Below, in pieces: positions 9,487 through 29,612 of a DNA stretch of 36,226 nucleotides. Position numbers and translations under genes: made by a program. Positions within the stretch are counted from its first letter, which is position 1; each line of letters opens with the position of its first letter. Under the pieces are notes generated by a model. It ran no database searches, had not been told where the DNA came from, and saw nothing but the letters and a program-made list of their open reading frames with translations. This DNA comes from Chthoniobacterales bacterium. Its GTDB lineage: Bacteria > Verrucomicrobiota > Verrucomicrobiia > Chthoniobacterales > UBA10450. The stretch lies in the NCBI GenBank assembly GCA_025935755.1, contig JAICUQ010000015.1, positions 1 through 36,226 on the forward strand, in the 5' to 3' direction.

Positions 9487-9831
9487 TTAGCGAAAGATCG
9501 GGTAATCGTACCACGCAAATAACGTAAGCCAGAAGAGGCCGAGCACAAAAAAACCGGTGAAAATCAGGATGCGATAGATGAGCCGCTTTTCAGCCGCGAG
9601 ATGCATGAATATTGCGGCCACAAGTCCGGCTTTGAATGCCGCTACCAGCACAGCCACCGCAATGTTGGCCTTGTGCGTGCCAAAGTTCACGTAGGACAAC
9701 GCCACAGTGAGGGCGGTAAACACCAGCAGCGTGATGCCAACCATCAAATACCCCCGCACGTGCTTTCGAATGCCGTGCGCGTATTCCTCAAATTCCTTTG
9801 GGTCCTGCGAAACGTCAGGCGGGTTGTTCAT
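9487..9831 (-). CDS. coxD: Cytochrome c oxidase subunit IV
   Basis: The 114-residue protein has three membrane helices and the pattern of prokaryotic subunit IV: a soluble N-terminus (MNNPPDVSQDPKEFEEYAHG), a first helix, a second with AVLVAAFKAGLVAAIFMHL, and a third ending FAWYDYPIFR. The KAxLVAxxFMHL element is the family hallmark. I place the start at the ATG at 9831; a TTG 36 nt upstream is possible but less likely. It is a non-catalytic structural subunit, lying between coxC and the small membrane genes. Confidence 0.85.
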   Translation of the reverse strand: MNNPPDVSQDPKEFEEYAHGIRKHVRGYLMVGITLLVFTALTVALSYVNFGTHKANIAVAVLVAAFKAGLVAAIFMHLAAEKRLIYRILIFTGFFVLGLFWLTLFAWYDYPIFR

Positions 9832-10020
9832 GGCAATTACGTCATTCTCGGCGGAGCGAACCTGCAAGGCAGCCTCGAAAGCTTTCGGGGCAACGCCAGG
9901 CTTTTAAGCTCTCGTTATTTCCGGAACCAGTCACATTCAGAAACTGAGACGTTTAAAGGCTGGCCTATGCTTCGCATTTCCTTGCAGCGCTTGCTCAACA
10001 TGACAGCGTTATCAATAAGT

Positions 10021-10896
10021 TTAGAGGAGATAAAATAACGGAAAGACAAAGATCCAGATTAGATCGACAAAGTGCCAGAACAGGCCGGCTACTTCCACTC
10101 GATTGGCCAGATGTTCAGGATTACTTTGGTAAAGCCGTTTGCTGACTGGCAGCCACAAGTAAATGAACACCAGCACGCCACCGAGCACGTGCGCCCCATG
10201 CAGCCCGGTAATGGTGAAATAACTGGCGAAATATGTGCTGTGCGTCGGCAAAAACATCGTTGCGCGCTCGACGTCTTCCTTTTCGATCTTCGCGATTTTG
10301 TCAGTGACCGGCAGCGGGAAAAAATGCGGCCGATCGACCTCGGGATTGGTGGGGTAAGCGTTAAGCGGGTCCAGCGCGACTTCGTATTCCTTGATATTGG
10401 GGTCTTTCAACGCCGCCTGATTGTGCAAGTGACCGGTGATCTCAAGTCGCGGCGGCAAATCTTTCTCCGCAGCATACGCGTTGCCCAGATATTGTTCATA
10501 TTTTCCCAGCGCCTCTGGTTTGATGTAGGCGCCGAAATGAACGTAATCCAGCGGCCATTCATAACCCAGTTTAATGACGAGAAAGACGATCCCGCACAAA
10601 ATTGTGCCCAGCATGTACCACCAATAAGCGCGATACCTCCGCATCTTGAGCGACGCCCAGGCCAACACCACCATGACCGACGAAATGATGAGAATCGAGG
10701 TATTAAATGTGCCTACCGGCACGTTGAGCACGCCACGCGGCCATGTGCCCGGCGGTGCGTCGATGCGCAGAAAGATGTAGGCGGAGAAAAGCCCGCCAAA
10801 GAGCATCACTTCCGATGCCAGGAAAAGCCAGATGCCGACCTTGGCATTCCAAAGACCGGTGTCTGGACGAGTGGAAACTGTGTACGGGATTTCCAT
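10021..10896 (-). CDS. coxC: Cytochrome c oxidase subunit III with a hydrophilic insertion
   Basis: The 291-residue membrane subunit stabilises the oxidase core. It starts with the GIWLFLASEVMLFGGLFSAY helix and ends with ITGLHGAHVLGGVLVF and VEVAGLFWHFVDLIWIFVF, all typical of subunit III. Between the fourth helix and the FASYFTITGLH helix lies a hydrophilic stretch of about 75-80 residues (about 130-208), rich in Lys, Glu and Pro, which the family usually lacks; it has no Cys and no haem motif. The gene follows coxA by 58 bp, and about 190 bp without a gene separate it from coxD. Confidence 0.95.
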   Translation of the reverse strand: MEIPYTVSTRPDTGLWNAKVGIWLFLASEVMLFGGLFSAYIFLRIDAPPGTWPRGVLNVPVGTFNTSILIISSVMVVLAWASLKMRRYRAYWWYMLGTILCGIVFLVIKLGYEWPLDYVHFGAYIKPEALGKYEQYLGNAYAAEKDLPPRLEITGHLHNQAALKDPNIKEYEVALDPLNAYPTNPEVDRPHFFPLPVTDKIAKIEKEDVERATMFLPTHSTYFASYFTITGLHGAHVLGGVLVFIYLWLPVSKRLYQSNPEHLANRVEVAGLFWHFVDLIWIFVFPLFYLL

Positions 10897-10954
10897 GATT
10901 CAGTGGCGCGAAGTCGCCGACAATCGACTTGTATATGGAACTTCCATAGATGCC

Positions 10955-12939: not shown

Positions 12940-14016
12940 GTGTGCGAGAATTTCCATGTGCAAGATGACCGAAACGCACGCGCAATCATACATCTCGATA
13001 TGGATTGCTTTTACGCAGCGATCGAGGTGCGGGACCGGCCTTCGTTGCGGGACAAACCCGTCGGCGTCGGCGGCGCTCGCGATAGACGCGGCGTTTTGAC
13101 CACCTGCAATTATGAGGCACGCAAGTTCGGCGTCCGCTCAGCCATGCCGACGTTCATGGCCATGCAACGTTGCCCGAACTTGATCGTGCTTCCGACACGG
13201 TTCGACGTTTACCGGCGCGAAGCGGCCATTATCCGCGGAATTCTTTACCAGTTCACGTCGATCATCCAACCGTTGTCGCTCGACGAAGCTTACCTCGATG
13301 TCACATCGCATCCAGGCGCCCCGGCGGCGCTCGCGCAGGAAATCCGGAGCGCGATCTTTACGGCAACAAAACTCACCTCTTCGGCAGGAATAGGTCCAAA
13401 CAAACTCATCGCAAAAATCGCCAGCGAACTGAACAAACCAAACGGTCAGTTCGAAGTCACGCCGGAACAAGTCGCGGATTTTATGAAAGATTTGCCCGTG
13501 CGCAAAATCTGGGGAATCGGCGAGAAGAGCGAACGAAAACTCGAAGACTTGGGTGCCAGAACCTGTGGCGAACTTCAACGATTCTCGCGGCCCGAGCTCG
13601 TTAATGTATTCGGCAAATTCGGCCTTGAACTGTACGATCTTTGTCGCGGCATGGATGACCGGCCGGTCGAACCGGATCGTCCCCGCAAATCGCTAAGCAC
13701 GGAGGAAACGTTCGCTGCCGATCTCACCACGCTCGAACAATGTGAAGAAAAACTCGAAGAACTCTTCCAGGACTTAATGGCGGATCTGGCCCAAAAAGAA
13801 TCGATGCGCGACCTGACCAAGATCTTCGTGAAACTAAAGTTCAATGATTTCACGCGCACTACTGCCGAGCGCGCGGGACTTCCGCCAACTTTGGAAGGCT
13901 TCCGCTCGCTCCTTGAGGAAGCATTCGGGCGAACTGGTAAACCCGTGCGCTTGATCGGTGTCGGTGTTCGTTTTGCTGACCCGATACAGGAAGACGCCCA
14001 ACTGAATTTATTATAA
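12940..14016 (+). CDS. dinB: DNA polymerase IV (Y-family translesion polymerase)
   Basis: The 358-residue polymerase copies across damaged bases. Its metal-binding acidic residues are in IIHLDMDCFYAAIE and in SLDEAYLDVT. The GPNKLIAKIASELNKPNG segment and the VRKIWGIGEKSERKLEDLG helix-hairpin-helix are typical of DinB, as is the C-terminal little-finger region. It lacks an obvious C-terminal beta-clamp motif of the QLxLF type, although the end QLNLL is close. The start is a GTG at 12940 or an in-frame GTG at 12958; no ATG precedes the first motif. No SOS box is evident upstream. Confidence 0.95.
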   Translation: MCENFHVQDDRNARAIIHLDMDCFYAAIEVRDRPSLRDKPVGVGGARDRRGVLTTCNYEARKFGVRSAMPTFMAMQRCPNLIVLPTRFDVYRREAAIIRGILYQFTSIIQPLSLDEAYLDVTSHPGAPAALAQEIRSAIFTATKLTSSAGIGPNKLIAKIASELNKPNGQFEVTPEQVADFMKDLPVRKIWGIGEKSERKLEDLGARTCGELQRFSRPELVNVFGKFGLELYDLCRGMDDRPVEPDRPRKSLSTEETFAADLTTLEQCEEKLEELFQDLMADLAQKESMRDLTKIFVKLKFNDFTRTTAERAGLPPTLEGFRSLLEEAFGRTGKPVRLIGVGVRFADPIQEDAQLNLL

Positions 14017-14039
14017 CACCGCCCAACTTTCCTGAAGCT

Positions 14040-14145
14040 TCATGTTGAGCGAAGTGCTGCAACGAAATGCTCAGCATGAGGTCAGGCTTTCGAACATCTC
14101 TGATCAATTGTCGAGAGTGAGATTGTTCGCTTCACTCAGATGACA
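14040..14145. repeat. Degenerate dispersed repeat between dinB and the FAD dehydrogenase
   Basis: TCATGTTGAGC (14040) and GCTCAGCATGA (to about 14080) form an imperfect palindrome, and GTGAGATTGTTCGC...CAGATGACA (14117-14145) is a diverged copy of the repeat at 1691-1718. The repeat ends 2 nt before the start codon of the next gene. Confidence 0.5.
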
Positions 14146-14147
14146 AC

Positions 14148-17100
14148 ATGAATTCGGCACATCAACGAAGGATCAGGCAGACCGGTTGCGAAGCACGGTT
14201 CGATGATCTCACCCGTCAACTCTACTCGACTGACGCTTCGATTTACCAAATACACCCAGCCGGCGTCGCGTTTCCGAGGACCACGGATCAGGCGAGTGTT
14301 GTCATTCGCGCCATCGCGGACGGAGGTTTTTCCATCACGCCGCGCGGCGCGGGCACCAGTCTGGTTGGCAATGCGATCGGCGAAGGCATGGTCGTCGACT
14401 TCTCGCGGTACAACAGACAGATCACCGATCTCGATCTCGAAAAGCGCAGCGTCCGGGTAGGAGCCGGCGTTGTGTTGGATCAACTCAATGAATTTTTAAA
14501 TCCGCACGGTTTTTGTTTCGGACCAGACGTGGCGACGAGCTCGCGCGCCACGCTCGGAGGCATGATCGCGAACAATTCGTCCGGCGCGCGTTGCCCAATT
14601 TACGGCACAACAGCCGATCACGTGATTTCGCTCGAAATCGTACTGGGTGACGGCCGCGTCGAAAAAATTGGAATCGACCATGAGTCGTTAGGCTGCGAAC
14701 GCACAAAAATTGAAGAACTCGTTCGTGCGGCGAGCAGCGAAATGGCCGAGCGCTGGCCTGCGGGTTTAATGAAACGCTGGCCCGGCTACGGCATCGAACG
14801 ATTCCTCCGCGCGCCAAATGACCTGACCAATATCCTCGCCGGCAGCGAAGGCACACTGGCGGCCATCTTCTCCGCTGAGCTCAAGATTTCTCCCCTGCCC
14901 CGCGAGAAAGGTTTGGGCCTGATCTTTTTCGCGTCGGCTGCTGAAGCAATGCAGGCGACGGTTGACCTGCTCGATCTCAAGCCTGCCGCGATCGAACACA
15001 TCGATCGGCCTTTGTTCGATGGAACCAGGGGGCAACTTCAGTTTCAGGCGGCGCGTGACTTACTCGAGCTGGACACGAAACCGTGCGAATCGATTTTGAT
15101 TGTCGAGTTCTACGATTGTGAGAATGCGCGGACACGTCTGGGTCTTCAAAGCGGTTCCGCAGCCGCGGCATCGCACTCCAAATCTTCAGTCGGCGAGCGA
15201 CTGTCAACGCTCCAATCAAAGAAGCTTGGTCTGCGCACGAAAATTATCACCGACCTGGCGCAAATGAACATGGTCTGGTCCGTGCGCAAATCCGGTCTTT
15301 CCCTTTTGACTGGATGCATCGGCCCGGCAAAGCCAGTTGCGTTCATCGAAGACGCAGCTGTTCGTCCCGCGCAATTGCCTGAATACGTGCGCGGTTTGCA
15401 ATCGATCATGGAACCGCTAGGCCTCACCGCGAGCTACTACGGCCATGCCGCCAGCGGACTTTTGCACGTGCGCCCGGTGCTCGATCTGCACACTGCCGCC
15501 GATTTGAAAAAATTCCGGCAAGTCGCAGATGAAACTTCAGCACTGGTGCGCCAGTTCAAAGGTTCGCTGTCTGCCGAGCATGGTGTGGGTATCGCGCGCA
15601 CCGAATACATGCGCGATCAACTTGGCGATCAGTTGCTCCAAGTGATGCGTGAAATCAAACTCGCGTTTGATCCAAAAAATGTTTTCAATCCTGGCAAAAT
15701 TTTCGCGGACGGCCGGCACAAAATCGATAGTCATTTGCGCGAAAATTTCACGCGTCCGCTCGAGCTTTCGTTTGAGCCGTTGCTCGCCTTTGCGTTCAAA
15801 GACCGGTCGTTCACAGGTAACCTCGAACAATGCAACGGTTGCGGCGGGTGCCTTAAACAGAGCGGCATCATGTGCCCGACGTTCATCGCGACGCACGATG
15901 AAGCGATGTCCACACGTGGTCGCGCCAACATCATTCGGGCCGCACTCGAGCATGGATTCGGAATGCGCGTTGATGTTCGCGCTTTCGAAAGCGGTCCCGC
16001 AGCCGCGGGATCGCCGCACTCCGGAGATCCGCTGAAATCCGCCGAGCTCGATGCCGCGTTGAGCAATTGCCTCTCGTGCAAAGGTTGCACGCCGGAATGC
16101 CCATCCAACGTGAACCTGGCGCTGCTAAAGGCGGAGATGCTTCACGCGCGTTGGCGCCGCGACGGCCTGCCGCTCCGCGAACGCATTCTGAGCAACGTCG
16201 ATTTGTTAGGCAAACTTGGCTGCATCATGCCGGGTGTAACCAATCGATTCCTCGATTCGAAGTCCGTGCGCTTGGCGATGGAGAAAACCATTGGAATTTC
16301 CCGACAACGTTCGCTGCCTCGTTACGCGAGCGAACGCTTTGACAAATGGTTTGCAAAGCGTCTGGGGAGCGCGGGTGCCGTGCCCGCTGTGTCACGCGCC
16401 TCGCGGGACACACTCGGGAGCGCAAGCTCCCGGAGGTTTGGAGCCAAAACGCAGGTCTTTGGCGAGGCGCCAAAAACAGCGGGCGAGGCGCCCGCGGTCC
16501 CCAGACGCGGCCAGGTCATCCTGTGGGATGACACCTTTGTACGTTATCACGAACCGCACATCGGCATTGCGGCAGTAAAAGTCCTCGAGGCGCTCGGGTT
16601 CGAAGTGTCGCTCGTGAAAAACCGCAGCTGCTGCGGACGACCGGCATTCAGTCAGGGAAATCTCGATTACGCAGCGCAGCTCTCCAGATATAACGTGGAG
16701 ATTCTCTCATCCTTCCATTACTCCAATACTCCAATTCTGTTCCTGGAGCCCTCGTGCTGGTCGATGTTCGTCGAAGACTATCGCGAGTTGAACATCGCGA
16801 ACGCTGAAGACGTCGCGGAGCGCTGTTTCCTTTTCGAAAAATTCGTGGACGATTTGCTGGCGCGAGAACCGGAAGCCATTCGGTTCAACGAGTCCCGTAA
16901 TCGCTCGATCGTCATTCACCCGCATTGCCACGCCAAATCGATCACCAGTCCAGCTTTCATGCGAAGACTCGCCGAACGTTTACCTGGGACAAAGGCGAGG
17001 ATACTGGACACAGCCTGCTGCGGAATGGCAGGCGCATTCGGCGCGCTCGCAGAAAAATACGATCTATCGGTCCAAATCGCGCAACGGTTGATCGACCAAA

Positions 17101-17225
17101 TTGATCATCAGCCTCCGGAGACGGAAGTAATCGCATCGGGCACAAGTTGTCGCCATCAAATCAGCGACCTAACAAGTGCCCGGCCGAAACACATGGCTGA
17201 GCTTTTGGCGGAAGCTCTCCCATAG
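14148..17225 (+). CDS. FAD-linked oxidase/Fe-S fusion dehydrogenase (YdiJ/GlcD-GlpC type)
   Basis: The 1025-residue protein joins a flavin dehydrogenase to an Fe-S electron-transfer half. Residues about 30-270 form the FAD-binding PCMH domain (TPRGAGTSLVGNAIG, then GGMIANNSSGARCPIYGTT). The FAD-oxidase C-terminal domain follows, with SLSAEHGVGIART. Two 4Fe-4S motifs follow (CNGCGGC near 562, CLSCKGCTPECP near 640). Two cysteine-rich CCG modules end the protein (RSCCGRPAFSQG and TACCGMAGAFG). The closest functional guess is oxidation of a 2-hydroxyacid such as D-2-hydroxyglutarate or D-lactate, with electrons going to quinone. Three repeat-derived in-frame inserts (near residues 334-345, 614-625 and 740-785) are unusual. 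The gene stands alone on the plus strand. Confidence 0.9.
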   Translation: MNSAHQRRIRQTGCEARFDDLTRQLYSTDASIYQIHPAGVAFPRTTDQASVVIRAIADGGFSITPRGAGTSLVGNAIGEGMVVDFSRYNRQITDLDLEKRSVRVGAGVVLDQLNEFLNPHGFCFGPDVATSSRATLGGMIANNSSGARCPIYGTTADHVISLEIVLGDGRVEKIGIDHESLGCERTKIEELVRAASSEMAERWPAGLMKRWPGYGIERFLRAPNDLTNILAGSEGTLAAIFSAELKISPLPREKGLGLIFFASAAEAMQATVDLLDLKPAAIEHIDRPLFDGTRGQLQFQAARDLLELDTKPCESILIVEFYDCENARTRLGLQSGSAAAASHSKSSVGERLSTLQSKKLGLRTKIITDLAQMNMVWSVRKSGLSLLTGCIGPAKPVAFIEDAAVRPAQLPEYVRGLQSIMEPLGLTASYYGHAASGLLHVRPVLDLHTAADLKKFRQVADETSALVRQFKGSLSAEHGVGIARTEYMRDQLGDQLLQVMREIKLAFDPKNVFNPGKIFADGRHKIDSHLRENFTRPLELSFEPLLAFAFKDRSFTGNLEQCNGCGGCLKQSGIMCPTFIATHDEAMSTRGRANIIRAALEHGFGMRVDVRAFESGPAAAGSPHSGDPLKSAELDAALSNCLSCKGCTPECPSNVNLALLKAEMLHARWRRDGLPLRERILSNVDLLGKLGCIMPGVTNRFLDSKSVRLAMEKTIGISRQRSLPRYASERFDKWFAKRLGSAGAVPAVSRASRDTLGSASSRRFGAKTQVFGEAPKTAGEAPAVPRRGQVILWDDTFVRYHEPHIGIAAVKVLEALGFEVSLVKNRSCCGRPAFSQGNLDYAAQLSRYNVEILSSFHYSNTPILFLEPSCWSMFVEDYRELNIANAEDVAERCFLFEKFVDDLLAREPEAIRFNESRNRSIVIHPHCHAKSITSPAFMRRLAERLPGTKARILDTACCGMAGAFGALAEKYDLSVQIAQRLIDQIDHQPPETEVIASGTSCRHQISDLTSARPKHMAELLAEALP
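15148..15183. repeat. In-frame dispersed repeat, copy 1
   Basis: AAAGCGGTTCCGCAGCCGCG followed by GCATCGCACTCC encodes QSGSAAAASHSK at about residue 334 of the FAD dehydrogenase. A second copy lies 840 bp downstream in the same gene and in the same frame (15988-16022). Confidence 0.65.
15988..16022. repeat. In-frame dispersed repeat, copy 2
   Basis: AAAGCGGTCCCGCAGCCGCG followed by GGATCGCCGCACTCC encodes ESGPAAAGSPHS between the two 4Fe-4S motifs. It differs from copy 1 at two or three bases plus a 2-nt length difference. Each copy sits at a surface-loop-like position. Confidence 0.65.
16364..16502. repeat. 139-bp compound palindrome inserted in frame
   Basis: The outer arms of about 27 bp (16364-16390, GGGGAGCGCGGGTGCC..., and 16476-16502, ...GGCGCCCGCGGTCCCC) are inverted copies with only a few mismatches. 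Inside lies a perfect stem CGGGAGC/GCTCCCG with a GCAA loop (16415-16432). The element encodes a low-complexity Ala/Ser/Arg/Gly stretch at residues about 740-785, between the 4Fe-4S region and the first CCG module. Confidence 0.75.
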
Positions 17226-17345: not shown

Positions 17346-18119
17346 CTACGGTTTTGGTGGTGCTGCGGGTTTTGCGGCTTCGCCGGGCTTCGGCGGGGCG
17401 CCTCCAGCTGGCGCTGAACCGCCCGGAAGATCTTCATCGGGCACAGCCAGGATGTCGTGCTCGGTGAACGATTCAGTGCGGCTAGCCAACTCTTTCCGCA
17501 GCGCGGCAATTTGCTCAGGCGTCACGGGACTCGCATTGTTGCCCCACTCGCTACGCTCGTACGTGAGGACGTCAGCAATTTTCTGGTCGGTCAACGTCTT
17601 GTCCCACGGTTGCATCACAGCCGTGCCGAATTGTTGGCCTTTAACTGTGACTGGACCTTGCAAGCCTTTAAGGACAATCATCGCGGGACGCCGCGACCCG
17701 CCGGTTGTAAATTCTGAACCAGCAAGCGGCGGATATTGACCGGCAACTCCAAGACCATTGGCTTGATGACAGGTCTGACAATTCGCCGCGAAAACTTTTT
17801 TGCCACGATCATGCGGCGAAAGTTCAACTTGTTCACCACCAGCCGGTCCCCCTGCCACTGCTTTTTTCGGTGCCGGCGGCGAACCCATCGGATCGAGTCC
17901 GCCGCTTGTGAAATTTCCCGAGAAACGGCCGAGGTATGCGCCGCCAAAGAAAATCGCCAGGCCGTAGATCGCGATTAGCCATATTGAAAGCGGCTCTGCG
18001 CCCACACGAGGTTCGCGTTTTTCGCGCCTGACGGCTGCATGCACCTGTTGCACGTCGGATTGTTCGCCATAATCCATCCCCTGCCCTGTGCGCGGCGACA
18101 TTTTTGGTTCGTCGTTCAT
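17346..18119 (-). CDS. Mono-haem membrane cytochrome c (CcoP-like)
   Basis: The 257-residue protein has a soluble, charged N-terminus, one membrane helix (about residues 44-62) and a periplasmic class I cytochrome c domain with one haem motif, CQTCH (114-118), and a likely axial Met169 in AVMQPW. True CcoP subunits usually have two haems, so this is a reduced form. The last 30 residues are Pro/Ala/Gly-rich. It is the last gene of the act-cco operon, 7 bp after the ccoO-like gene, and probably passes electrons from the complex to an oxidase or soluble cytochrome. The fold call is firm and the complex membership is inferred from position. Confidence 0.85.
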   Translation of the reverse strand: MNDEPKMSPRTGQGMDYGEQSDVQQVHAAVRREKREPRVGAEPLSIWLIAIYGLAIFFGGAYLGRFSGNFTSGGLDPMGSPPAPKKAVAGGPAGGEQVELSPHDRGKKVFAANCQTCHQANGLGVAGQYPPLAGSEFTTGGSRRPAMIVLKGLQGPVTVKGQQFGTAVMQPWDKTLTDQKIADVLTYERSEWGNNASPVTPEQIAALRKELASRTESFTEHDILAVPDEDLPGGSAPAGGAPPKPGEAAKPAAPPKP

Positions 18120-18126
18120 TGCGTCG

Positions 18127-19326
18127 TCATTTAGGAGCAGCAGGCGATCCTCCCGCTGGGGGAGCCGGTGAAGCAGCTGGCGCCGCTGGCGAAGAAGCTC
18201 CTCCAGCTGCAGGTGCGCCAGTTACTGATCTGACATCTTTCAATGGATGAGATTGATTAAGCCCCATCAAATAAGCCACCACACATTTTGCATCGAACGT
18301 GGGAACAATCTCCCACCCGTCCGGTGGAGCATCGGCGCCGGAAAGTTGCAACGCCTCCGCTGAACGCTCTCCGGTTATCCGTCTTTTTCGGTAAAGAAAC
18401 CGGTACGACGGCATGTTCGAATCAGGATTGATGCTGCGGGGCGCATATAAATGAACATGATGCCACGCCGCAGAATACATCGGCGGCAGACCCGCTGTTT
18501 GGATGGGCCACGGAGCGCCGGGAGTTTGCGCGCTGGGTGCAACAGGACTGCTTCCTCCGGGAGTAGTATTCGCCATCTGTCCAGGTGATGGCGAAGCAAC
18601 TCCGGTGCGCTGTCCCGGCGGCGCTGGCGAGGTGTGCACCACACCCGAAGTGGCAGGCGTCGGCGCAGGCGATGTCGCCAACACTGTTGCGGGCGAGCTG
18701 GCCGGCGATGCAGCGGGCGCGGTCGCAGGAGAGCTGGCTGGCGACGCAGCTGGCGCCGTCGCAGGTGAACTCCCAGGCGAACCGGCGGGTGCTGTTCCCG
18801 GCGAACTGCCTGATGAAGGTGATGTTGCAGGTGCTGCAGCGGCAGGGGCTGCAGCGGCAGGTGCTGCGCCAGCAGCAGGTCCAGCGGCAGCGGCAGTCGT
18901 AGCGGCAGCGGCTTGAGCTGCCGGACTTGCTCCTCCTGCAGACGCCGGTGATTCTTCGGGCGCCGGCGCGCGCGCGCCAATGTTTGCTAGGTCCTGGCCC
19001 ATTCGCATTTTTCCGAGAAATACCGGACGATCAAAAATGTAATCTCGCGGCGCACTCCGACGATCTCCCCATTTTCGCTCGATGTCGTTGGCGATGTAAT
19101 CGGCGCGGATTTGCTGGCTGTGACAATAGACGCAGCCGTTTGCCGCATAAACGTGTGCGCCCCGCTGGAACATTCCCGATTGTGGACGCGGATAAATGTC
19201 CGTGCCCTCTTCGTCAGATTCGGGATTGAGACTTCCGATTTGCCAGTTCGGGATGACCGTCAGACCGACCCAGGAAAAGGCGAACGTTCCGAAGATTCCA
19301 AGGAAAAGGGGAGCGAGTCCTTTCAT
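18127..19326 (-). CDS. CcoO-like mono-haem cytochrome c with a long low-complexity insertion
   Basis: The 399-residue protein has an N-terminal membrane helix (about residues 4-24) and the start of a FixO/CcoO domain: haem motif CVYCH at 65-69, then RADYIANDIERKWGDRRSA and GKMRMGQDLANIGAR. The domain resumes at about residue 281 with MYSAAWHHVHLYAPRSINP and NMPSYRF (likely axial Met305). Residues about 121-280 between them are an Ala/Pro/Ser/Thr-rich stretch that normal CcoO lacks. A Pro/Ala tail closes the protein. The start is the ATG at 19326, which overlaps the ccoN-like TGA by one base; a TTG just upstream is less likely. Confidence 0.88.
   Translation of the reverse strand: MKGLAPLFLGIFGTFAFSWVGLTVIPNWQIGSLNPESDEEGTDIYPRPQSGMFQRGAHVYAANGCVYCHSQQIRADYIANDIERKWGDRRSAPRDYIFDRPVFLGKMRMGQDLANIGARAPAPEESPASAGGASPAAQAAAATTAAAAGPAAGAAPAAAAPAAAAPATSPSSGSSPGTAPAGSPGSSPATAPAASPASSPATAPAASPASSPATVLATSPAPTPATSGVVHTSPAPPGQRTGVASPSPGQMANTTPGGSSPVAPSAQTPGAPWPIQTAGLPPMYSAAWHHVHLYAPRSINPDSNMPSYRFLYRKRRITGERSAEALQLSGADAPPDGWEIVPTFDAKCVVAYLMGLNQSHPLKDVRSVTGAPAAGGASSPAAPAASPAPPAGGSPAAPK
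18692..18835. repeat. 36-bp tandem repeat inside the ccoO-like gene
   Basis: Four successive 36-bp units start at 18692, 18728, 18764 and 18800, the first two nearly identical (GGCGAGCTGGCCGGCGATGC and GGAGAGCTGGCTGGCGACGC). On the coding strand they give SPASSPATAPAA-type repeats. Shorter Ala-coding repeats follow to about 18930. The array is in frame and likely varies in length between strains. Confidence 0.8.
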
Positions 19327-20804
19327 CAATGGCCTCCAGATGTCTCGGCTTCAACCGGGTTGAGAAACGTCGGAACCGTCGATGTGCGCCCCAATCCCAG
19401 CAGCATCAGACCAAAATGATATGCGAAAATGAAATGCGCGACCGTCAGCAGAATGCCGGATATGCTGCGTCCGCGAAGATATGGCAATACCGTTTGGATG
19501 CTTTCGCTGAATGGCAGCGCCGGGTTTTGCATATCCGCGCCTTGAAGGAATCCACCAGCGAGAAGCATGAGCGTCATCAAGCCGATCCCGTAGGCTGATG
19601 CCCAGAAATGAAGTTTAATTAGTGATGCGGAACGCCATTCACGGCCAACCAGTCGCGGAACGATGTAGTACATCGAACCGAAAATCGTCATCGTAAAAAA
19701 GGCGTACAGACCCAGGTGCGAATACGCAATGCTCACCTGCGTGAAATCCACGTATCTGGCAACTGACCGGAGGGAGATTAAGAGGCCGATCAGACTAAAG
19801 ACCGTGTACGACATGGCGCCGAATACGGTGAACCGGAGGGTCGGACTATATCGCAGCAAGGGGAAATAACCTTGCATCGTCAAATGATGATTGAGCCCGA
19901 TAGTTGCCACGGGAATCATCGTTAGGATTGTCGCGGCGATGCTTGCCGTAATCATCCACGCCGGAAACGGACCGTCCACCAGTCGCGTCATCCCGGTCCA
20001 GCTGGAAAAAAGCGCGTACGTCCAGAAACCGATGGTTGCCAGGTGATAACTATACACCGGGCGACCGATCACTTTGGGAATCATGTAATACGCCGTGCCC
20101 AGAGCGATCGCGCCGAACCAAAGAAATAACAGATTGTTGGCGTACCACCAGGTGATTGCTGCCTGCAGGACTCCCTGCAGTGGGACGACAAAAAGCATCA
20201 ATTGTCCGGCTGCATACAGCCATGGAAACCAGAGGAAGGCGCCAAGCAAAAACCATTGCGTGATGTAAATTTGGTCGCCGCGCCGATGCCGAAACATGAG
20301 CACCGCCCAGGAAGCCATAAGCGTGTAAGCGACAAACAGAATGACGGCTACATAGCGCGGAAACTCGAGCCACTGAAAACCAGTGCTATCGCCGAGAAGG
20401 ATTGCACATACGCCTATCAGCACGCCCAGGTTCCAGAATGCGCCGCCGGCTGCGAGCAACAGTGGAAATCGCAAGGTCGTCCGGCACAATCTTGCCATCA
20501 ACCAAACGGCCGTGCCCATTCCGGCCATTGAGCCCCAACCGTAAACCATCATGTTCATGTGAACCGGACGCAGCCGGCCCCATGTCAGAAGACCCATACC
20601 TCCAAACAGGTCGGGCCAATGCAACCCGAAGGAGACAAGCATCGCCAAAACTGTTCCAAGAATCAGCCACGCCACGGCCGAGGTATAAAACAGCAACACT
20701 GGTATCCGCGTCGACGCATCGATATATGCGCGCTCCAGTTGCTCGGTGTCGCCGGCTGCAACGGAAACAGCCGGTTCTTTGAGTGGAATTCCAGTAGTAT
20801 TCAT
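19326..20804 (-). CDS. CcoN-like haem b membrane protein lacking the oxygen-reduction site
   Basis: The 492-residue, roughly 12-helix protein clearly matches cbb3 subunit I: GRLRPVHMN holds the low-spin haem ligand His82, and YYMIPKVIGRPVYSYHL matches the usual YYFVPK...RPVYSYRL. However, the CuB ligand in WWYGHN is changed to WWYANN (Asn223), the CuB pair in WAGPHH is changed to WTGMTR (Thr273, Arg274), and the high-spin haem ligand in GHVHSG is changed to AYSHLG (Tyr361, with His363 kept for the low-spin haem). The conserved Glu in the FEGPMMS helix is Ile. It should therefore bind one low-spin haem b but not reduce oxygen. It follows the act genes and is coupled to the ccoO-like gene. Reference motifs are recalled from known CcoN sequences. 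Confidence 0.9.
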   Translation of the reverse strand: MNTTGIPLKEPAVSVAAGDTEQLERAYIDASTRIPVLLFYTSAVAWLILGTVLAMLVSFGLHWPDLFGGMGLLTWGRLRPVHMNMMVYGWGSMAGMGTAVWLMARLCRTTLRFPLLLAAGGAFWNLGVLIGVCAILLGDSTGFQWLEFPRYVAVILFVAYTLMASWAVLMFRHRRGDQIYITQWFLLGAFLWFPWLYAAGQLMLFVVPLQGVLQAAITWWYANNLLFLWFGAIALGTAYYMIPKVIGRPVYSYHLATIGFWTYALFSSWTGMTRLVDGPFPAWMITASIAATILTMIPVATIGLNHHLTMQGYFPLLRYSPTLRFTVFGAMSYTVFSLIGLLISLRSVARYVDFTQVSIAYSHLGLYAFFTMTIFGSMYYIVPRLVGREWRSASLIKLHFWASAYGIGLMTLMLLAGGFLQGADMQNPALPFSESIQTVLPYLRGRSISGILLTVAHFIFAYHFGLMLLGLGRTSTVPTFLNPVEAETSGGH

Positions 20805-20833: not shown

Positions 20834-21370
20834 TCATGGCGTAGCCGCTGGCGCAGGTGAGGCAGGGGCCGGTGACGATGGTTGGGTTGAAGGAGGTGAC
20901 GCAGCACCCTTTGCCGCGGGAGATCCGGCAGGCGCATTTGCCTGAGCAGGCTGTGCCGCGGGCTGCTGCTGATGAGAAGCCGGCGCGGGCGACTCTCCAG
21001 CGGGCGGCGCTGCCGCTGGCGCGACCTGCGCAGGCGGCGTGGCAATCGGTCCTGCCGGGGCCGGCTTTTGTTGCGCCAAATCAGCAACTGTAAGTTCCAT
21101 CGCGCGATCGATTGGGATTCGCGCAATGCCTTTGTTCTTATCGACCCAGGCGTAGGTCGTGAGGTCCTTTTGTGTTTCTTCATTCAACGCCTTCAATCTT
21201 TCCATTCGCTTCTTTGCGCGGCTTTCTTCGTAATCACTTGAGCGCGGCGAAGGTCCGATCACCGCGAACACGATGAGACCAAACAAGACAAACAGAAACA
21301 CAACGCCGAGCCAGGTGGAGAATGGCGCGTGAGAGTAGGCAATGGTGCGAGCTGATTGCGTGTCGGCCAT
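20834..21370 (-). CDS. Single-helix membrane protein between actF and the ccoN-like gene
   Basis: Starting at the ATG at 21370, the 178-residue protein has one membrane helix (about residues 18-40), a charged helical segment (EESRAKKRMERLKALNEET) and a compact conserved-looking motif, WVDKNKGIARIPIDRAMEL. The last 80 residues are a Pro/Ala/Gln-rich tail. The ATG is preferred over an upstream in-frame start within actF; it lies one base after the actF stop. I do not recognise a named family. Its position suggests a subunit or assembly factor joining alternative complex III to the ccoNOP-like module, which is an inference. Confidence 0.75.
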   Translation of the reverse strand: MADTQSARTIAYSHAPFSTWLGVVFLFVLFGLIVFAVIGPSPRSSDYEESRAKKRMERLKALNEETQKDLTTYAWVDKNKGIARIPIDRAMELTVADLAQQKPAPAGPIATPPAQVAPAAAPPAGESPAPASHQQQPAAQPAQANAPAGSPAAKGAASPPSTQPSSPAPASPAPAATP

Positions 21371-21371
21371 T

Positions 21372-22574
21372 TCAGTTGACGGTGGTAAGAGATTCAATCA
21401 GACGCGGATCCCGGACCGGGAACAGCGAAGTTTTCGCGACGACTCGCAGGTAAACGAACCCGAGCGTCGTACCGATCGCGATCAGACAAATCAAATCCCA
21501 GATGCTCACGTGCACGCCCGTTCCGTGTAACGCAGGTAAAACGATCAGATACATGTCCAGCATCTGCATGAAAATCATCCAGGCGGCCAGAATACTGAGC
21601 TGGTGCGGATTTTTCTTGATCGAGCGCATCAACAAAATCGCAAACGGCACAAAGAACCGGCCGATGACCAGAAGCATGCTGAGTACCCACCACGATTGCG
21701 TGTTTCGTGTTAGGAAGAATTGGGTCTCCTCCGGGATGTTTGCATACCAGATGAGCATGTACTGGCCGAAGCCGATGTAGGCCCAGAAAATGCAGAACGC
21801 CAGCATCCATTTTCCCATGATGTGGTAGTGCTCGAGGGTGACGATCCCTTTGAGGTAACCCGCTTGTTGCAAAGCGGCGATCACCAGCACCAGCAACGCC
21901 ATCGAACTGCCCGCTGTCCCTGCAAAGATGTAGACGCCGAACATGGTTGAAAACCATCGGAAGTTGAGGCTCATCATCCAGTCGAACGCGCCAAACGTCA
22001 GACACATAGCAAACAACGGCAGACTGATGAACGACACCCGGCGCATCCAGATCGTGAACAGCGGATTTCCGTCTTTATCCTGGCGCGAGGAATATCTCCG
22101 CAGCAAGAGTGACGCGATAATCCAGAAAGCAAAAAAGATAATCGCGCGGATCAAAAACCAATGAAGATTGAGATACGCGCGCTTGAGATCCAGATTTGGC
22201 GCGCGCCCGGGAGGAATCACCATCCACGAGTAGAGATGGTCTCGCAGCAGCAAAATCGGGATAAAAAGGATTGCCAGCACGCCTAACAAGACTGCGATAT
22301 TTTCCAGTTGCCGGCGCACCACCACCGACCAGTCGGCGTCCGTTGCGTGGTGAACAATCGTCCAGAAGAAGCAGCCTGCGCACAGCGTAAAGAAGAACAC
22401 GAACGCAAACAGCCAGGAGTAGCTGAATTGATGCGGATTCACCAATGCGCCCACCAGACAGAGCACCAGGCTCACAACGGCAATCACACCGAGCAGAGTA
22501 GAAAGTCCTGTAAATCGACGACTGTCGAAGTATTCGCCTTCTGGCATTGGTGGTGTGTGTAAACGCTCGCTCAT
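21372..22574 (-). CDS. actF: Alternative complex III subunit ActF (quinone-binding membrane subunit)
   Basis: The 400-residue protein has about ten membrane helices and no cysteine haem motif. It starts SERLHTPPMPEGEYFDSRRF and has conserved-looking loops LYSWMVIPPGRAPNLDLKRAYLN and LEHYHIMGKWMLAFCIFWAY. ActF is a paralogue of ActC within the NrfD-like group and belongs to the membrane part of the quinol:cytochrome c oxidoreductase. Its ATG overlaps the actE stop by 4 bp (ATGA). The order actABCDEF is the usual one for this complex and makes the call firm. Confidence 0.88.
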   Translation of the reverse strand: MSERLHTPPMPEGEYFDSRRFTGLSTLLGVIAVVSLVLCLVGALVNPHQFSYSWLFAFVFFFTLCAGCFFWTIVHHATDADWSVVVRRQLENIAVLLGVLAILFIPILLLRDHLYSWMVIPPGRAPNLDLKRAYLNLHWFLIRAIIFFAFWIIASLLLRRYSSRQDKDGNPLFTIWMRRVSFISLPLFAMCLTFGAFDWMMSLNFRWFSTMFGVYIFAGTAGSSMALLVLVIAALQQAGYLKGIVTLEHYHIMGKWMLAFCIFWAYIGFGQYMLIWYANIPEETQFFLTRNTQSWWVLSMLLVIGRFFVPFAILLMRSIKKNPHQLSILAAWMIFMQMLDMYLIVLPALHGTGVHVSIWDLICLIAIGTTLGFVYLRVVAKTSLFPVRDPRLIESLTTVN

Positions 22575-23338
22575 TTTGCAGGAGTCGCAGCCGGTGGCGG
22601 TGACGCAGGTTTGTCCATTTCCGCGCGATGATCTTCAGGGACATCGGCAATGGCCGCGTGCTGGCTGCGTTGCAACGCGCGCAGATAGGCGATGATGGCC
22701 CAACGATCCGCCACGACGAGGTTCGGCCCGTAAGGCATCATCGTATTTTTTCCGTTTGTAATCGTGTTGAAAATTTCGCCGTCAGACATTTTGCGGATCC
22801 GATCGTCCTGAAGTGAAATCACGGTCGCAAGGCCGTACTGTTTCGTGATCCCATTGCCTGCAGCCGAAGCACCGTGGCACATCGCGCACGTGATGTTAAA
22901 ACGCTGCTGGCCGCGCTCCATTAACTCGCGCGTGACCGGCAGCGGAATTCCCGTTCCCCATTGGTCGCCCATTTTGCCAGTGTTGAAGTAATCGGTTCCG
23001 GCACTGAATGCGATCCGCATGTGCGCTTCCTCCGGCGCGTCTTCTGTCATACCGGCCGGCGAGCTCACGCTCTGCGCTGTCGGGCCGCCTTCCTCATTAT
23101 GGGCCACGTTGCGGCGAGGCATCTCGTACCCAACTGGAACTGTGCCCGCGACGGGCAAACGCGGACCGCGTCCATCAGCAAAAAAATCAAGCGGCGCCTG
23201 TGCGCGCACCTTTGGTTGCCGAACCATGTCTGGAAAAACTTCCGATGGCGGTTGTGTGCTTTTCTGCCCGCGAAATCCCATGACAGCGACCATCGCGATC
23301 GTGCACAGGATAAAAATAACGAAGAAGCCGCGAAGCAT
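22571..23338 (-). CDS. actE: Alternative complex III subunit ActE (mono-haem cytochrome c)
   Basis: The 255-residue protein has one N-terminal membrane helix or lipid-anchor-like signal (residues about 3-20) and a periplasmic cytochrome c domain with one haem site, CAMCH (151-155), followed by GASAAGNGITKQYG. A plausible axial Met lies in NTMMPYGPNL. The C-terminus ends in a short Pro/Ala tail. ActE takes electrons from ActB/ActA toward the terminal acceptor. It begins 2 bp after actD and overlaps actF by 4 bp. Confidence 0.9.
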   Translation of the reverse strand: MLRGFFVIFILCTIAMVAVMGFRGQKSTQPPSEVFPDMVRQPKVRAQAPLDFFADGRGPRLPVAGTVPVGYEMPRRNVAHNEEGGPTAQSVSSPAGMTEDAPEEAHMRIAFSAGTDYFNTGKMGDQWGTGIPLPVTRELMERGQQRFNITCAMCHGASAAGNGITKQYGLATVISLQDDRIRKMSDGEIFNTITNGKNTMMPYGPNLVVADRWAIIAYLRALQRSQHAAIADVPEDHRAEMDKPASPPPAATPAK

Positions 23339-23340
23339 AT

Positions 23341-23898
23341 TTAGTCCTCGTGCACGACAGTGATGTGCCGCCCCCCAGTTTGCTCCAGCAGTTCGTACAC
23401 GCCGTTCTCGGTAAAGCGCGGATCGTGAGCTTCGATCGCCAGAAAAAATCCGTCATTGGTCACGCGGCTGAACCGGTCCCAGTTGAACATCGGATGATTC
23501 CAGCGCGGCAAACGATTCATGCCTTGCCACGCGAAGAATGCGGCGAACGAGGAGAAAAGGATCGTCAGCTCAAACATGATCGGAAAAAATGCCGGGACGG
23601 TGAAGAAATTGGTCGGTTTCCCATGCACAACGAGCGGATACAGAAAAGATGACGGGCCGAATTCGACTATGACCGCAGTTAGAAATCCCGAGATTCCGCC
23701 AAACAGAACCCAGCCGCTCAACCAGGATTTGCCGAGCCCCATCGCTTCATCCATTCCGTGAATTGGAAATGGCGAAAACACGTCCCATCTGCGGAAGCCA
23801 GCATCGCGCACGCGCTTCGCCGCCTCGTAAAGCGCCGCCGCGCTCGGATATTCCGCGGCCATTGCATACACCTTGTGACCGTAGGGCGTTGTGGTCAT
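23341..23898 (-). CDS. actD: Alternative complex III subunit ActD (DUF3341)
   Basis: The 185-residue protein has the family's N-terminal soluble part ([35 protein letters not shown]) and two membrane helices (about residues 78-98 and 120-142), with a C-terminal soluble tail. It binds no visible cofactor and is a structural subunit of the complex. Its ATG overlaps the actC stop by 4 bp. Confidence 0.92.
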
Positions 23899-25337
23899 CG
23901 GTTGCGCTCTCCTCCGGCGGCGGGAATGGATTCGGGAGGCAGATCGTAATGCGGGTCCGCCTCAGGTGTGGCTGTCTTCACTTCTGACATTGCAATCATC
24001 GGGAGGAAACGAATGAACAGAAGGAACAGCGAAGTGAAAATTCCGATCGTGCCGATGTAGGTCCAGATGTCCACCCAGCTAGGCTGGAAAATGCGCCACG
24101 AGGACGGCAGGAAGTCGCGATGCAATCCGCCGACGATGATGATGAAACGCTCGAACCACATTCCGGCGTTCACGCACATCGCCACGAAAAAAACGACCAG
24201 CACGTTACGACGACACCAGCGGAACCAAAACAGCTGTGGCGACAGGCAGTTGCAAAAGAGCATCCCGAACCACCAGTACCACCAGTAGGGACCGAAAATC
24301 CGGTTCCAAAATGCGAACCGCTCGTAGTGGTCGCCGCTGTACCAGGCGATGAAAAACTCCATGGAGTAGGCGTAAGCGACGAAAGAACCCGTTAACAAAA
24401 TGATCTTCGCCATCTTGTCGACATGCTGCGGCGTGATGATGTCCTGCAATTTGAAAATCGCCCGTGCCGGCAACAGGAGCGTCAGCACCATGGCAAACCC
24501 GCCGAAGATCGCGCCGGCAACGAAATAAGGCGGGAAAATAGTCGTGTGCCATGTAGGCAAAACGGTCGACGCGAAGTCAAAGGATACGACGCTGTGCACC
24601 GACAGAACGAGTGGCGTAGAAAGACCGGCCAGGAGCAGGTACGCCATTTCGTAATGACGCCAATTACGGTTGGAGCCGCGCCAGCCAAGAGCGAAAACTC
24701 CGAACAGAAATTTCCGGACCCGGGTGGTTGCTCGATCTCGCAAACTCGCCAGATCCGGAACCAAACCGGTGTACCAGAACAGGACCGACACGGTGAAATA
24801 GGTCGAGACCGCGAACACGTCCCACATCAAAGCGCTGCGGAAGTTCTGCCAGATCGCCCAGTTGTTAGGTATGGGCGCCAAATACCACGCCATCCAAAAC
24901 CGGCCGACGTGAATTCCTGGAAAAATCGCAGCGCAGATTACCGCAAACAGCGTCATCGCCTCCGCAGAGCGGTTAATGGAGGTGCGCCATTTTTGACGAA
25001 GCAGGTACAAGATCGCAGAGATCAACGTCCCGGCGTGTCCGATACCGATCCAGAAAACGAAGTTGGTAATCCCCCACGCCCAGCCGACAGGGATATTGTT
25101 TCCCCACGTGCCAACGCCGGTGGAGATCAGGTACCCAATGCAAAACAGTCCAAAGGTCGCAATGCTGGCAGTCGTCATAAAACAGACCCACCACCACCTG
25201 GGTGCGGGTTGTTCGACGACGCCCGAAATGCGTTGGGTAAGCCAGTTGAAATTGCGCCTGTTTAGCACCAGCGGAACATGCGCAATTTGCTGTCTTGCCT
25301 GCTCGAGTTCCGGTGCTGTTGCTGGTGCTCCGTCCAT
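23895..25337 (-). CDS. actC: Alternative complex III subunit ActC (NrfD-like quinol-binding subunit)
   Basis: The 480-residue protein of the NrfD/PsrC family spans the membrane about ten times. Characteristic segments are [37 protein letters not shown], and [16 protein letters not shown]. It carries the quinol oxidation site and works with the Fe-S chain of ActB. The start is the ATG at 25337: an AGAGG sequence lies 6 nt before it, and the TTG 6 nt upstream is not needed. It lies 9 bp after actB. Confidence 0.93.
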
Positions 25338-25346
25338 GTTCAACCT

Positions 25347-28300
25347 CTACTCTGGCAATGTCTCGACCCGACTGGCAATGCCGATATCTTTCGCATCAGG
25401 CATTTTCGGATTTGGATTTCGAAGCCGGGCGAGATAACTCGTCCGCGGTACGACGTTCAAGTATTCGAGGATCCGATAATTGCGATCCTGTTTTTTCATT
25501 TTCGAGACGCCACTCTCCGGGTCTTTGATGTCGCCAAAAACGATCGCTTCAGTTGGACACGCTTGTGCGCAGGCGGTGGTGAACGAATCGCGCGGGATAA
25601 GCTTGTTAGGCGAAGCGCTGGCGCGCGCAATCGCTGCGATCTTCGCTTCTTCGATGCGTTGGACGCAGTAACTGCATTTTTCCATCACCCCTCGCATGCG
25701 CACGGTGACGTTAGGATTTTTCTGCAACTTTATCGTGTCCGGCGCGCCCTTGGTAGTGAGCGGCGCAAAATACTCTTCAAAGACGTTCAGGGCGCCGACG
25801 ATCTTTCTCTTGCCGACTGGTCGCTGCGTGTAATCGAAGAAGTTAAAACGCCGCACCTTGTAGGGACAATTATTCGAACAGAATCGAGTGCCGACGCAGC
25901 GGTTATAAGCCATTACGTTGAGGCCGTCCTCGCTGTGAACGGTCGCGTTTACCGGGCAAACCGTTTCACATGGTGCGTTCTCGCAATGCTGGCAGGGCAT
26001 TGGTTGGAACACCATTTCGGGATGCTCCGGCCAGTGGCCGCGGTCCTGGTTGAAAGGCTCCCGGCTGGCGTAATACCGATCGATGCGCAGCCAATGCATG
26101 ATTCGCCCATGCGCGACTTGTAACTTCCCAACCACCGGAATGTTGTTCTCTGCCTGGCAGGCAATCACGCAAGCGCTGCAGCCAGTGCACACATTCAAAT
26201 CGATGCTCATCCCCCATTGCTGGGGCGCGTCCAGCGGCGGATGCGAATACAGAGTCGGTGGCGGATGCGGCAGTTCTTCTGCTCCAGGAATTTCTTTGGC
26301 GAAATCGTTGTTGTTGCGATACCCCTCTAATGTTGCTTCACGAATCAACCCGCGGCCTTCGATGCTGAAGTGTTCCTGCATGATGGACAACGGATAATTC
26401 CGTCCCACCCTGGTCACTTGCACGCTCTCAACGCCTTTTGCCCCGGCAACAGCGACGTACGGATTGGCTGCGGTTCGCAGGAAATAGCCATTGAATCCCG
26501 CCTGCTCTGTAAGCCCCGATCTTTCCTTTAAATTCCCGCCTGCATACGGCAGTTCGTCGAACTGCGGCATTTTGCGTCCCCAGCCGAGTGCAACTGAAAC
26601 AGAATTGTCCGCATGCCCGGGCGACACATACGCTGCAATGACGAGCTCGCGCTTCATCGCACTTCCGCTGGCGCTCTTTTCATTGATCGTGATCTGCAAC
26701 AAATCTCCGGTTTCAACACCGACTGTTTTTGCATATTCAGGACTGATCAACGCCACGTTGTCCCAACTCAGCCTCGTAACCGGGTCGGGAAGTTCCTGGA
26801 GCCAGCCGTTGTTTGCGTAGCGGCCGTCATCCATGCCGTAGCTGCCGGTCAACACGATCTCCGGCGCTTCCGGTGTGGGAGCCGCTGGAGCCGATGACGA
26901 ATCGCGCGGCAACGCTGCCGCGCCACCCGCGTTGAAAGTGGCGGGTTGATCAGCGGGTTGAACATGCGCGGCAAAACCATCGTGCAAAAAACGCGACCAA
27001 ATCGTCTGAAAATCTCCCGGAGGATTTGTCAGGCGAAATGTTTCCTGCACCAGTTCGGGACCTTCCAGTTTCGGGCCGCCCAGAACCATGTTCATCAGCT
27101 CGATTTCACTGACTCCGCCAAAAAGCGGAAGGATCATCGGCTGAATCGACAAATAATCGCCACCAGCCGTGAGCACGTCGCCCCACGACTCGAGATAATG
27201 AGCAAGCGGAACGTGCCACTGGCTCAGAGCCGATGTCGCGTCCTCGTGATAACCAAGCCGCACAATGTTCGGAACTTTCTTTTGCAACTCTGCCCAATCG
27301 AGAGGCGTCTTTGACTCTGGATCTTCTACCAATCCCCGCGGCGCGTTATAGACCGGGTCGCCGCCGAAAATGAACATTTGCTTAACGCGACCTTCGTTTA
27401 TATCCGTCGCGAGCTGAGCGATGTCGATTGTCTTCGGATTGCGCGGCACCTGGCGTACAACGAGGGTTTGGCCGACATTTTTTAGCGCGGCGTTCATTGC
27501 ATAAACCAGCGTCTGCACCGCCACCGGCTGTGCCGGGCCGGCGAGCACCAGGCTTGCTCCCGGTTTCGCCATCAAATCGGAAGCGACGCCATCAATCCAT
27601 TGCTGGTCGAAGCTGTTTGGCCCGCCTTGCGAATTTCCAAGCAAAGAGCCCAGAGCGGAATCATTCGTTGCGCCGAGGATCTTTGTCGCCAGCGCATGCG
27701 CGAACGCAGGAATCTGACTGGCTGGACAACGCAGTCGATGATCCGCCATTGCACCGGTGAGGCTGAAACGGTGTTCCACCACATACAGCCGGTTCATGCT
27801 GTCCTTCGACGTGCTCACCTTGCGGCGCGTAGTGAAACCGCGCACGGTTTCAAGATCGCCCTCGCCGCAATCGAGAAAGTCGCTATCCAGCGCAAGAATC
27901 ACGTCGGCGCGATCGAATTTTGGCAACACGCGTGCGTTGGCGCCGAACGCTGCTTGCATTGCCATGTTTGCATCCTGACCAAGTCGCGGTTCGTAAACGC
28001 ACCAACGCATTCCCGGGAATTTTTTCTCCAATTCCACCCGCAAACGCTCCCGGGTCGGCGAATTCGTCTCCTCCACCAGAAACGCAAGACTCTGGCCCTG
28101 GTCATCCAGCATGGTTTTGCCAAATTCTCCGAGGAATTTCTCAAATTCTTCGCGCGTACTTGCCTTCTTTTTCTGAACGAAACGTTTCGACCGGGTCGGA
28201 TCGTACAGATCGAGGATCGACGCCTGCACAAACGTGTCGGTGGCGCCGGCGCTTGCCGGGTGCAGCGGATTGCCTTCTAGCTTGATCGGCCGGCCGTCCA

Positions 28301-29472: not shown

Positions 29473-29612
29473 TGGTACTAGACGGCTTCCACGCCGACAC
29501 TGCGCAGCCGCCAAGCCCGCCGAGGCGGATTCGTCCCGCGGCGAACTACCAATGAGCAAAAACTGTGGTCAGGATGTGCTTCGTTCAGACGCTGCAAGTG
29601 GTTAAGGTTAAT

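Follow-up and report, generated by a model that had tools for sequence, protein, structure and literature searches.

A CcoN-like protein without catalytic metal ligands in the alternative complex III operon of Verrucomicrobiota is probably an oxidase-dead accessory subunit

The stretch of DNA analysed here, referred to throughout as the window, comprises the 36,226 nucleotides of contig JAICUQ010000015.1 (assembly GCA_025935755.1) from a Chthoniobacterales bacterium, and its central element is a gene for a homologue of CcoN of the cbb3-type oxidases, the eighth gene in an operon for alternative complex III (ACIII) of a Verrucomicrobiota genome near Candidatus Udaeobacter. The encoded protein has lost all ligands of CuB and haem b3, and judging from its sequence it is close to certain that it is not an oxidase. 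We propose, at a probability of roughly 0.6, that it instead represents an oxidase-dead accessory subunit of ACIII that provides a scaffold for cytochromes carrying c-type haem. The gene occupies positions 20804 to 19326 of the minus strand, where the frame is open over 492 residues and ends in a stop codon that overlaps the start ATG of the CcoO-like gene behind it; the plus-strand frame over the same positions contains stops. An earlier note on this DNA, made from the sequence, had given both the coordinates and the open frame correctly. The order of the genes is actA to actF, a gene for a small transmembrane protein (smTM), the CcoN-like gene, the CcoO-like gene and a gene for a mono-haem cytochrome c, so that the CcoN-like gene is encoded within the actABCDEF operon, as expected of an ACIII subunit.

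The loss of the catalytic site can be read directly from an alignment with the CcoN sequence of Pseudomonas stutzeri (3mk7), in which we take H207, H257 and H258 to be the CuB ligands, H345 the haem b3 ligand, Y251 the cross-linked tyrosine and H60 and H347 the ligands of the low-spin haem b. The three CuB columns are filled by Asn223, Thr273 and Arg274 in the window protein, the haem b3 column by Tyr361 and the cross-link column by Ser267, and the low-spin pair is retained as His82 and His363. The residue numbering proposed previously (His82 in RPVH, Asn223 in WWYANN, Thr273 and Arg274 in WTGMTR, Tyr361 and His363 in AYSHLG, and Ile at the position of the FEG glutamate) proved exact. The protein clearly belongs to the COX1 superfamily (193.6 bits in Pfam, cut-off 34.8), but its score with the CcoN equivalog model TIGR00780, 168 bits, falls far below the cut-off of 583.15. 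Nor does it resemble the NorB-type nitric oxide reductases, whose FeB is bound by histidines, because these fall in the same columns as those of CuB and no histidine is found there. An AlphaFold2 model built from 44 sequences (mean predicted local distance difference test score 83.8, predicted template-modelling score 0.87) superposes on CcoN of 3mk7 with a template-modelling score of 0.85-0.90 at about 26% identity; both the ligand loss and the CcoN fold postulated in the earlier note were thus upheld by the comparisons that it had called for. Chance is not a plausible cause of the ligand loss, since none of 62 aligned sequences from the window's own family retains any of the four catalytic histidines. 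One element of the earlier claim, that all catalytic positions were lost together, has to be given up: it stands for the histidines of CuB and haem b3 but not for the FEG glutamate, which is Ile (SLIG) in the window protein but is missing also from 55 of the 56 relatives that keep the site, and its absence hence characterises the ACIII-linked group as a whole rather than the loss of the site. The single site-keeping relative with Glu at this position is L122.

To place the window protein among its relatives we relied on a class-wide draw of genomes, 312 of 384 of which match it, the weak matches including ordinary fused CcoNO proteins such as L045. The 265 loci considered contained 261 with a homologue longer than 350 residues (the other four being the remaining COX1 loci of the window genome), 234 of them distinct, and 231 remained when L045, L244 and L248 were dropped as lying outside the family of homologues. 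The loci were selected by hand, usually one or a few for each genus, and the best 80 of 434 matches of one scan were added, as a result of which the window's family is over-represented. The site is lost in 175 of these 231 homologues and kept in 56, all six histidines being present in 55 of the latter and one showing Arg at one CuB column. Among the 175, 62 keep none of the six histidines, 49 only the low-spin pair and 64 one or two scattered ones; three sequences of the window's family that have no residue at the His60 column (two contig ends and one internal gap) were counted here as lacking the histidine. The cross-link tyrosine accompanies the complete site, occurring in 56/56 complete versus 1/175 lost proteins. 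The 156 loci with a family code cover 64 codes, of which 40 have the lost form alone, 16 have the complete form alone and 8 have both, most families being represented by one or a few genomes. No relative of the CcoN-like protein was found in viral contigs, and in the open-licence literature we did not find ligand loss described for these genes, although Refojo 2010 and Muntyan 2015 could bear on it; the latter introduced an "unknown group" of COX1 relatives, as cited in PMC5492636.

A few genomes call for separate mention. L244 and L248 represent a separate C-type-like homologue with all six histidines and the motifs GYYMHQ and IGTHHF, and both genomes also carry a lost, ACIII-linked copy. Genome G036 of the window's family has a lost copy in the ACIII operon (L026/L027 being the pair of loci) and a ligand-complete copy on another contig, where a binning error is possible. 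Finally, L081, L118 and L119 are homologues in metagenome-assembled genomes labelled Acidobacteriota, Omnitrophota and Isosphaeraceae, which points to either transfer or mislabelled bins.

The position of the gene is almost constant irrespective of the state of its site. Among loci with 2.5 kb or more of upstream sequence, an act gene is found ahead of 140 of 141 lost genes and of 48 of 53 complete ones; among those with 0.7 kb or more downstream, a CcoO-like gene comes after 164 of the 165 lost genes and all 55 complete ones. The 226 CcoO-like proteins found next to 234 genes all carry the haem-binding motif CxxCH, as do 208 of 211 of the cytochromes c that come next. The expectation, raised in the earlier note, that homologues with the WWYANN and YSHLG signatures follow actF was borne out, and it extends to far more degenerate and to ligand-complete homologues. 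Four ligand-complete copies (L032, L117, L122 and L163) have no act genes upstream within the stretch examined and a fifth, L139, has the small transmembrane gene only, which suggests that the complete cassette may also stand alone.

The gene is also under selection in the close relatives of the window. Its ratio of nonsynonymous to synonymous substitution rates (dN/dS) is 0.04-0.06 in seven close pairs, in which actF gives 0.06-0.11 and the CcoO-like gene, computable in six of them, 0.08-0.17, and the ratio for the CcoN-like gene is 0.11 in two further pairs of the family; since synonymous sites are well toward saturation, the comparison between genes within a pair is safer than the absolute values. 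The window gene thus shows neither the broken frame nor the relaxed selection of a pseudogene, and the earlier proposal of a selected non-oxidase role, as opposed to decay, agrees with these ratios and with the near-constant act neighbourhood. Outside the window's family, G76, G89, W124, W220 and P281 are invariant in 73 lost proteins. When lost and complete proteins are compared (73 versus 39, on an assumed topology), the rise in entropy amounts to 0.91 in the periplasmic loops and to 1.12-1.49 elsewhere; the loops are therefore the least relaxed part, which fits docking of a cytochrome, this being the side on which CcoO would dock.

In the model that we favor, the CcoN fold would have been kept to serve as a scaffold by which both the CcoO-like cytochrome c and the cytochrome c encoded next to it are anchored to ACIII. 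Electrons from menaquinol would then travel through the haems of ACIII to the two c haems and onward to a separate oxidase, such as the aa3-type enzyme encoded nearby. In the window's family a single low-spin haem b is probably bound between His82 and His363, and may serve to stabilise the fold or to adjust electron transfer. Several observations weigh against this model. The CcoO-like genes were located by similarity to a stretch of the window that contains the haem motif, so that haem-less ones could have escaped; CxxCH is retained to the same degree next to complete genes as next to lost ones, and would fit any role that needs a cytochrome; the periplasmic-loop signal is modest; and membership in ACIII is deduced from the genes, not from the protein. 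Moreover, the mean share of the majority residue is 0.47 in lost as opposed to 0.69 in complete proteins (77 and 39 sequences), indicating weaker constraint in many lineages. In one genome the gene lies in two overlapping frames (G417:C58:225276-226701), and L075 has an internal gap around the His82 column, each of which reflects either an assembly error or decay.

The last of these points could also be accommodated by ordinary decay, that is, by the gene being a functionless leftover of a former cbb3-like oxidase on its way out, all the more as many of the lost lineages evolve fast: within genus g9, lost copies share only 56-66% identity with one another while their ActC proteins are 93-94% identical. 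Against this stand the absence of internal stops among the matches listed, the dN/dS of 0.04-0.11 over all nine family pairs, the presence of the lost form in 48 of the 64 family codes sampled, almost always with the act operon upstream, and the five residues that stay invariant outside the family. We thus regard decay as already disfavoured and quite improbable.

Of the alternatives that grant the protein a function, the one put forward in the earlier note is that selection acts on the retained low-spin haem b itself, which would carry electrons, from quinol for instance, across the membrane or inside it. Such a relay would be in keeping with the strong purifying selection on the gene and with the fate of the histidine pair in the window's family, where 49 of 59 sequences with both columns filled keep both histidines and the ten losses are mostly joint (7 of both, 3 of one), the gene being retained in all ten. 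Of 30 sequences that share at least 80% identity with the window protein, 27 have both columns filled and all 27 hold the pair; two of the other three are truncated by a contig end and the third, L075, is missing a segment in which the His82 column falls. Beyond the family, however, 0/113 lost proteins hold the pair (79 keep neither histidine and 34 one), and these relatives nevertheless maintain the gene and its place in the operon. A haem b relay can therefore not be the general reason for retention, and we deem it unlikely as an explanation of the family's gene as well, even though close to the window it is a possible role as judged from the conserved pair. Coupled loss of His82 and His363 was considered as proof of a shared function and rejected; Fisher's exact test on the 59 sequences gives p 8e-7, but on the tree the losses reduce to about three changes for each residue, too few for a phylogenetic test. 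It is conceivable, too, that the protein gained another catalytic site with non-histidine ligands, acting for example on nitric oxide, since 61 of 62 family sequences share an Asn in the first CuB column and a Tyr in the haem b3 column, which may be selected. Yet the Arg and the Thr or Gln found in the other two CuB columns bind metals poorly, known nitric oxide reductase centres require His and Glu ligands, and many different residues occupy these same columns in other lineages, all of which renders a new site very improbable. Least credible of all is an oxidase that builds its binuclear centre from other histidines. The window protein has no HxH motif and one further histidine pair, His306-His307, and both the alignment and the fold superpose on CcoN without a shift, with no other histidine falling at the CuB or haem b3 positions, the opposite of which the earlier note had named as refuting its claim. 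In addition, position 307 is His in 56/56 and position 306 in 52/56 of the site-keeping relatives, and by the helix limits of the model the pair sits at the opposite end of helix 8; a pair that is shared with relatives keeping a normal site, and located there, cannot be a substitute site. The same pair is missing from CcoN of 3mk7, and position 307 is His in 83 of the 175 lost proteins.

If the CcoN-like protein is an oxidase-dead subunit of ACIII, oxygen would be reduced by another enzyme, and a candidate for this in the window genome, as far as its genes tell, is a separate aa3-type oxidase set on the minus strand at 8071-12838, composed of coxA (12838-10955), coxC (10896-10021), a coxD-like gene (9867-9487) and coxB (9030-8071). 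CoxA scores 437.5 bits with COX1, and its best NCBIfam match is CtaD_CoxA (572 bits, under the cut-off of 671); the other three were named from their translations. Between the coxD-like gene and coxB, on the same strand at 9023-9418, there is a frame for a small Cys-containing membrane protein with no Pfam or NCBIfam match at E<=0.01. All 29 genomes taken as having lost the site contain one or more further COX1 members (ligands were read in 26, and the remaining three belong to the family of the window). Of 20 genomes with a site-keeping copy, one of which has a changed CuB ligand, G060 (94% complete) has that copy as its only COX1 match.

This has a bearing on the methane oxidisers. PF02461, the ammonia/particulate methane monooxygenase (AMO/pMMO) subunit, is absent from the window genome and present in 7/7 others, namely six genomes of family code f20 with a located homologue and one more, and we take the f20 genomes to be verrucomicrobial methanotrophs. 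In these six, the homologue is the only match to the window protein at E<=0.001. The three copies that were aligned (L231, L242 and L264) have a single one of the six histidines each; two of these copies are preceded by an act gene, and L264 shows the small transmembrane gene only. Eleven of the 30 COX1 loci of these genomes were inspected and have, besides the CcoN-like ones, an A-, B- or NorB-type look, L266 being uninformative. In the accessible parts of the literature, ACIII genes are described as co-located with a cbb3-type oxidase, in line with a high oxygen affinity (PMC6688271), an ACIII-linked oxidase is counted among three complexes IV of verrucomicrobial methanotrophs (PMC8498564), and the cbb3 type is likewise listed (PMC10205796). 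Judged by their ligand columns, methane oxidisers apparently carry the dead form of a gene that has been described as a working oxidase, and the single histidine left in each of these three copies from pMMO genomes would correct what had been deduced from the cbb3-type label. By the same token, taking CcoN genes as evidence of respiration at low oxygen may mislead surveys where Verrucomicrobiota are concerned.

How the two states came to be spread over the class is less easily explained, as different genes of the operon tell different histories. In genus g9, ActC is 93-96% identical between complete and lost operons, whereas the identity of the CcoN-like proteins is 45-52% across states, compared with 89% for two complete copies. 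A tree of ActC, ActD and ActF (68 sequences) implies 13 state changes, 9 of them forced by well-supported branches, and rejects a single clade of ligand-complete operons (p 2.5e-47 in the approximately unbiased test). The CcoN-like tree, on the contrary, shows 1 state change and does not reject a single loss (p 0.957 in the same test); rooted on true CcoN it implies 7 losses if the site was never regained, and a FastTree phylogeny of 176 sequences rooted likewise gives 8, in both cases across weakly supported forks. Gene by gene over 116 loci, the number of state changes is 21 for actC, 22 for actD, 19 for actE, 20 for actF and 16 for smTM, but 1 for the CcoN-like gene, 11 for the CcoO-like gene and 12 for the cytochrome c gene, against about 28-38 when shuffled; the conflict is thus sharpest at the CcoN-like gene and partial at its two downstream neighbours. 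Part of it is due to sites conserved only in complete copies, since CcoN-like sites that are equally conserved in both states give 10 changes for 108 columns, against 2-3 for random sets of 108, and 5 for 196 columns, against 1. A count of independent losses was dropped because the act-gene and CcoN-like trees disagree, and the synonymous and fourfold-degenerate sites of genus g9, tried as a means of separating repeated loss from exchange, are near saturation, with a modest excess in the CcoN-like gene between the states and among lost copies.

The disagreement of the trees singles out neither repeated loss nor exchange of the cassette, and an exchange of two old cassettes and a repeated loss with attraction in the tree are both candidates on the sequences at hand. 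Tentatively, and with more doubt than confidence, we suggest that the ACIII of Verrucomicrobiota has an interchangeable CcoN cassette whose two old forms, one competent and one dead, were swapped in place between collinear operons, the dead form being the sole C-type relative in the methanotrophs and in Udaeobacter. Were this true, ACIII would have alternated over evolutionary time between two modes, a quinol oxidase supercomplex sufficient in itself and a reductase feeding a separate oxidase, and the supposed high-affinity cbb3 oxidase of methanotrophs and Udaeobacter would not exist.

Compared with the cbb3 oxidase of P. stutzeri (3mk7), the window set shares the fold of CcoN, the low-spin haem b histidines and the CcoO-like partner gene directly downstream, and it differs in lacking the CuB and haem b3 ligands, the cross-link tyrosine and the active-site glutamate. 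Another difference lies in the cytochrome that follows the CcoO-like protein, which has one CxxCH motif (29 bits with ccoP, cut-off 180), whereas CcoP of the cbb3 enzymes has two haem motifs. C-type oxidase genes linked to ACIII have been described from Opitutaceae and verrucomicrobial methanotrophs (Refojo 2010, as cited in PMC8498564); the CcoN-like gene adjoins act genes as they do, and our ligand-complete relatives may include ones from Opitutaceae. Those genes are presented as oxidases in the available part of that source, which makes no mention of lost ligands, unlike what is seen in the three pMMO-genome copies. Subunits that lack their ancestral site have a precedent within ACIII itself, albeit in different protein families: as far as the accessible parts of PMC5928083 and PMC8552683 go, ActB is a relative of molybdoenzymes without the molybdenum cofactor and ActF is without the quinol-site residues of ActC, although PMC8552683 also ascribes to both ActC and ActF a motif predicted to bind quinol. 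ActG and ActH of the Rhodothermus ACIII (PMC5928083, in the part available) are likewise extra, non-universal subunits and apparently not relatives of oxidases, and our literature search turned up no structure of a verrucomicrobial ACIII. Homologues of heme-copper oxidases that lack the metal site, class-wide and behind ACIII genes, form a natural series from complete through low-spin only to none, which allows one to ask what the oxidase fold does without its chemistry and how ACIII passes its electrons on.

The remaining genes of the operon lie on the minus strand as well. ActA, the multihaem cytochrome c of ACIII (28747-29559), is first in the act order and has cytochrome c7/c3 matches and a sub-cut-off QrcA match; its start, as given in the list of open reading frames, may be placed too far upstream. 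It is followed by actB for the large iron-sulfur subunit, similar to complex iron-sulfur molybdoenzymes (25347-28646; named without a Pfam scan from its translation and the order common to the relatives), actC for an NrfD/PsrC-type membrane subunit (23895-25343; PF03916, 72.9 bits), actD for a membrane subunit (23341-23898; translation and position) and actE for a mono-haem cytochrome c subunit (22571-23338; PF13442, 53.1 bits). By translation and position, actF (21372-22574) encodes a second NrfD-like membrane subunit with no Pfam match at E<=0.01. The smTM product (20834-21370, with the start set at an internal ATG), which has no Pfam match, contains a single hydrophobic stretch and a Pro/Ala-rich tail and has a relative at the same place in most of the loci tabulated. 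Downstream of the CcoN-like gene, the CcoO-like membrane cytochrome c (18127-19326; PF02433, 72.8 bits, and translation) keeps CVYCH at residue 66 and NMPSY at residue 305, and the membrane-anchored mono-haem cytochrome c (17346-18119) matches PF00034 with 51.8 bits. Between its CxxCH and NMPSY motifs the CcoO-like protein carries a Pro/Ala/Ser-rich insert of about 160 residues beyond what other groups have; the spacing of the two motifs is 239 in the window, with a median of 190 in its family (33 measured) and values of 76-79 among the remaining lost proteins (15 measured) and the complete ones (4 measured). The window genome is an assembly of 3.67 Mb in 270 contigs, and its closest named relatives, at 80-90% identity, are mostly metagenome-assembled genomes titled Verrucomicrobia bacterium, two being labelled Candidatus Udaeobacter. 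The two respiratory gene sets of the window are separated by plus-strand genes at 12940-17225 which, to go by their translations, encode a DinB-like polymerase and a long fusion protein resembling FAD/iron-sulfur oxidases.

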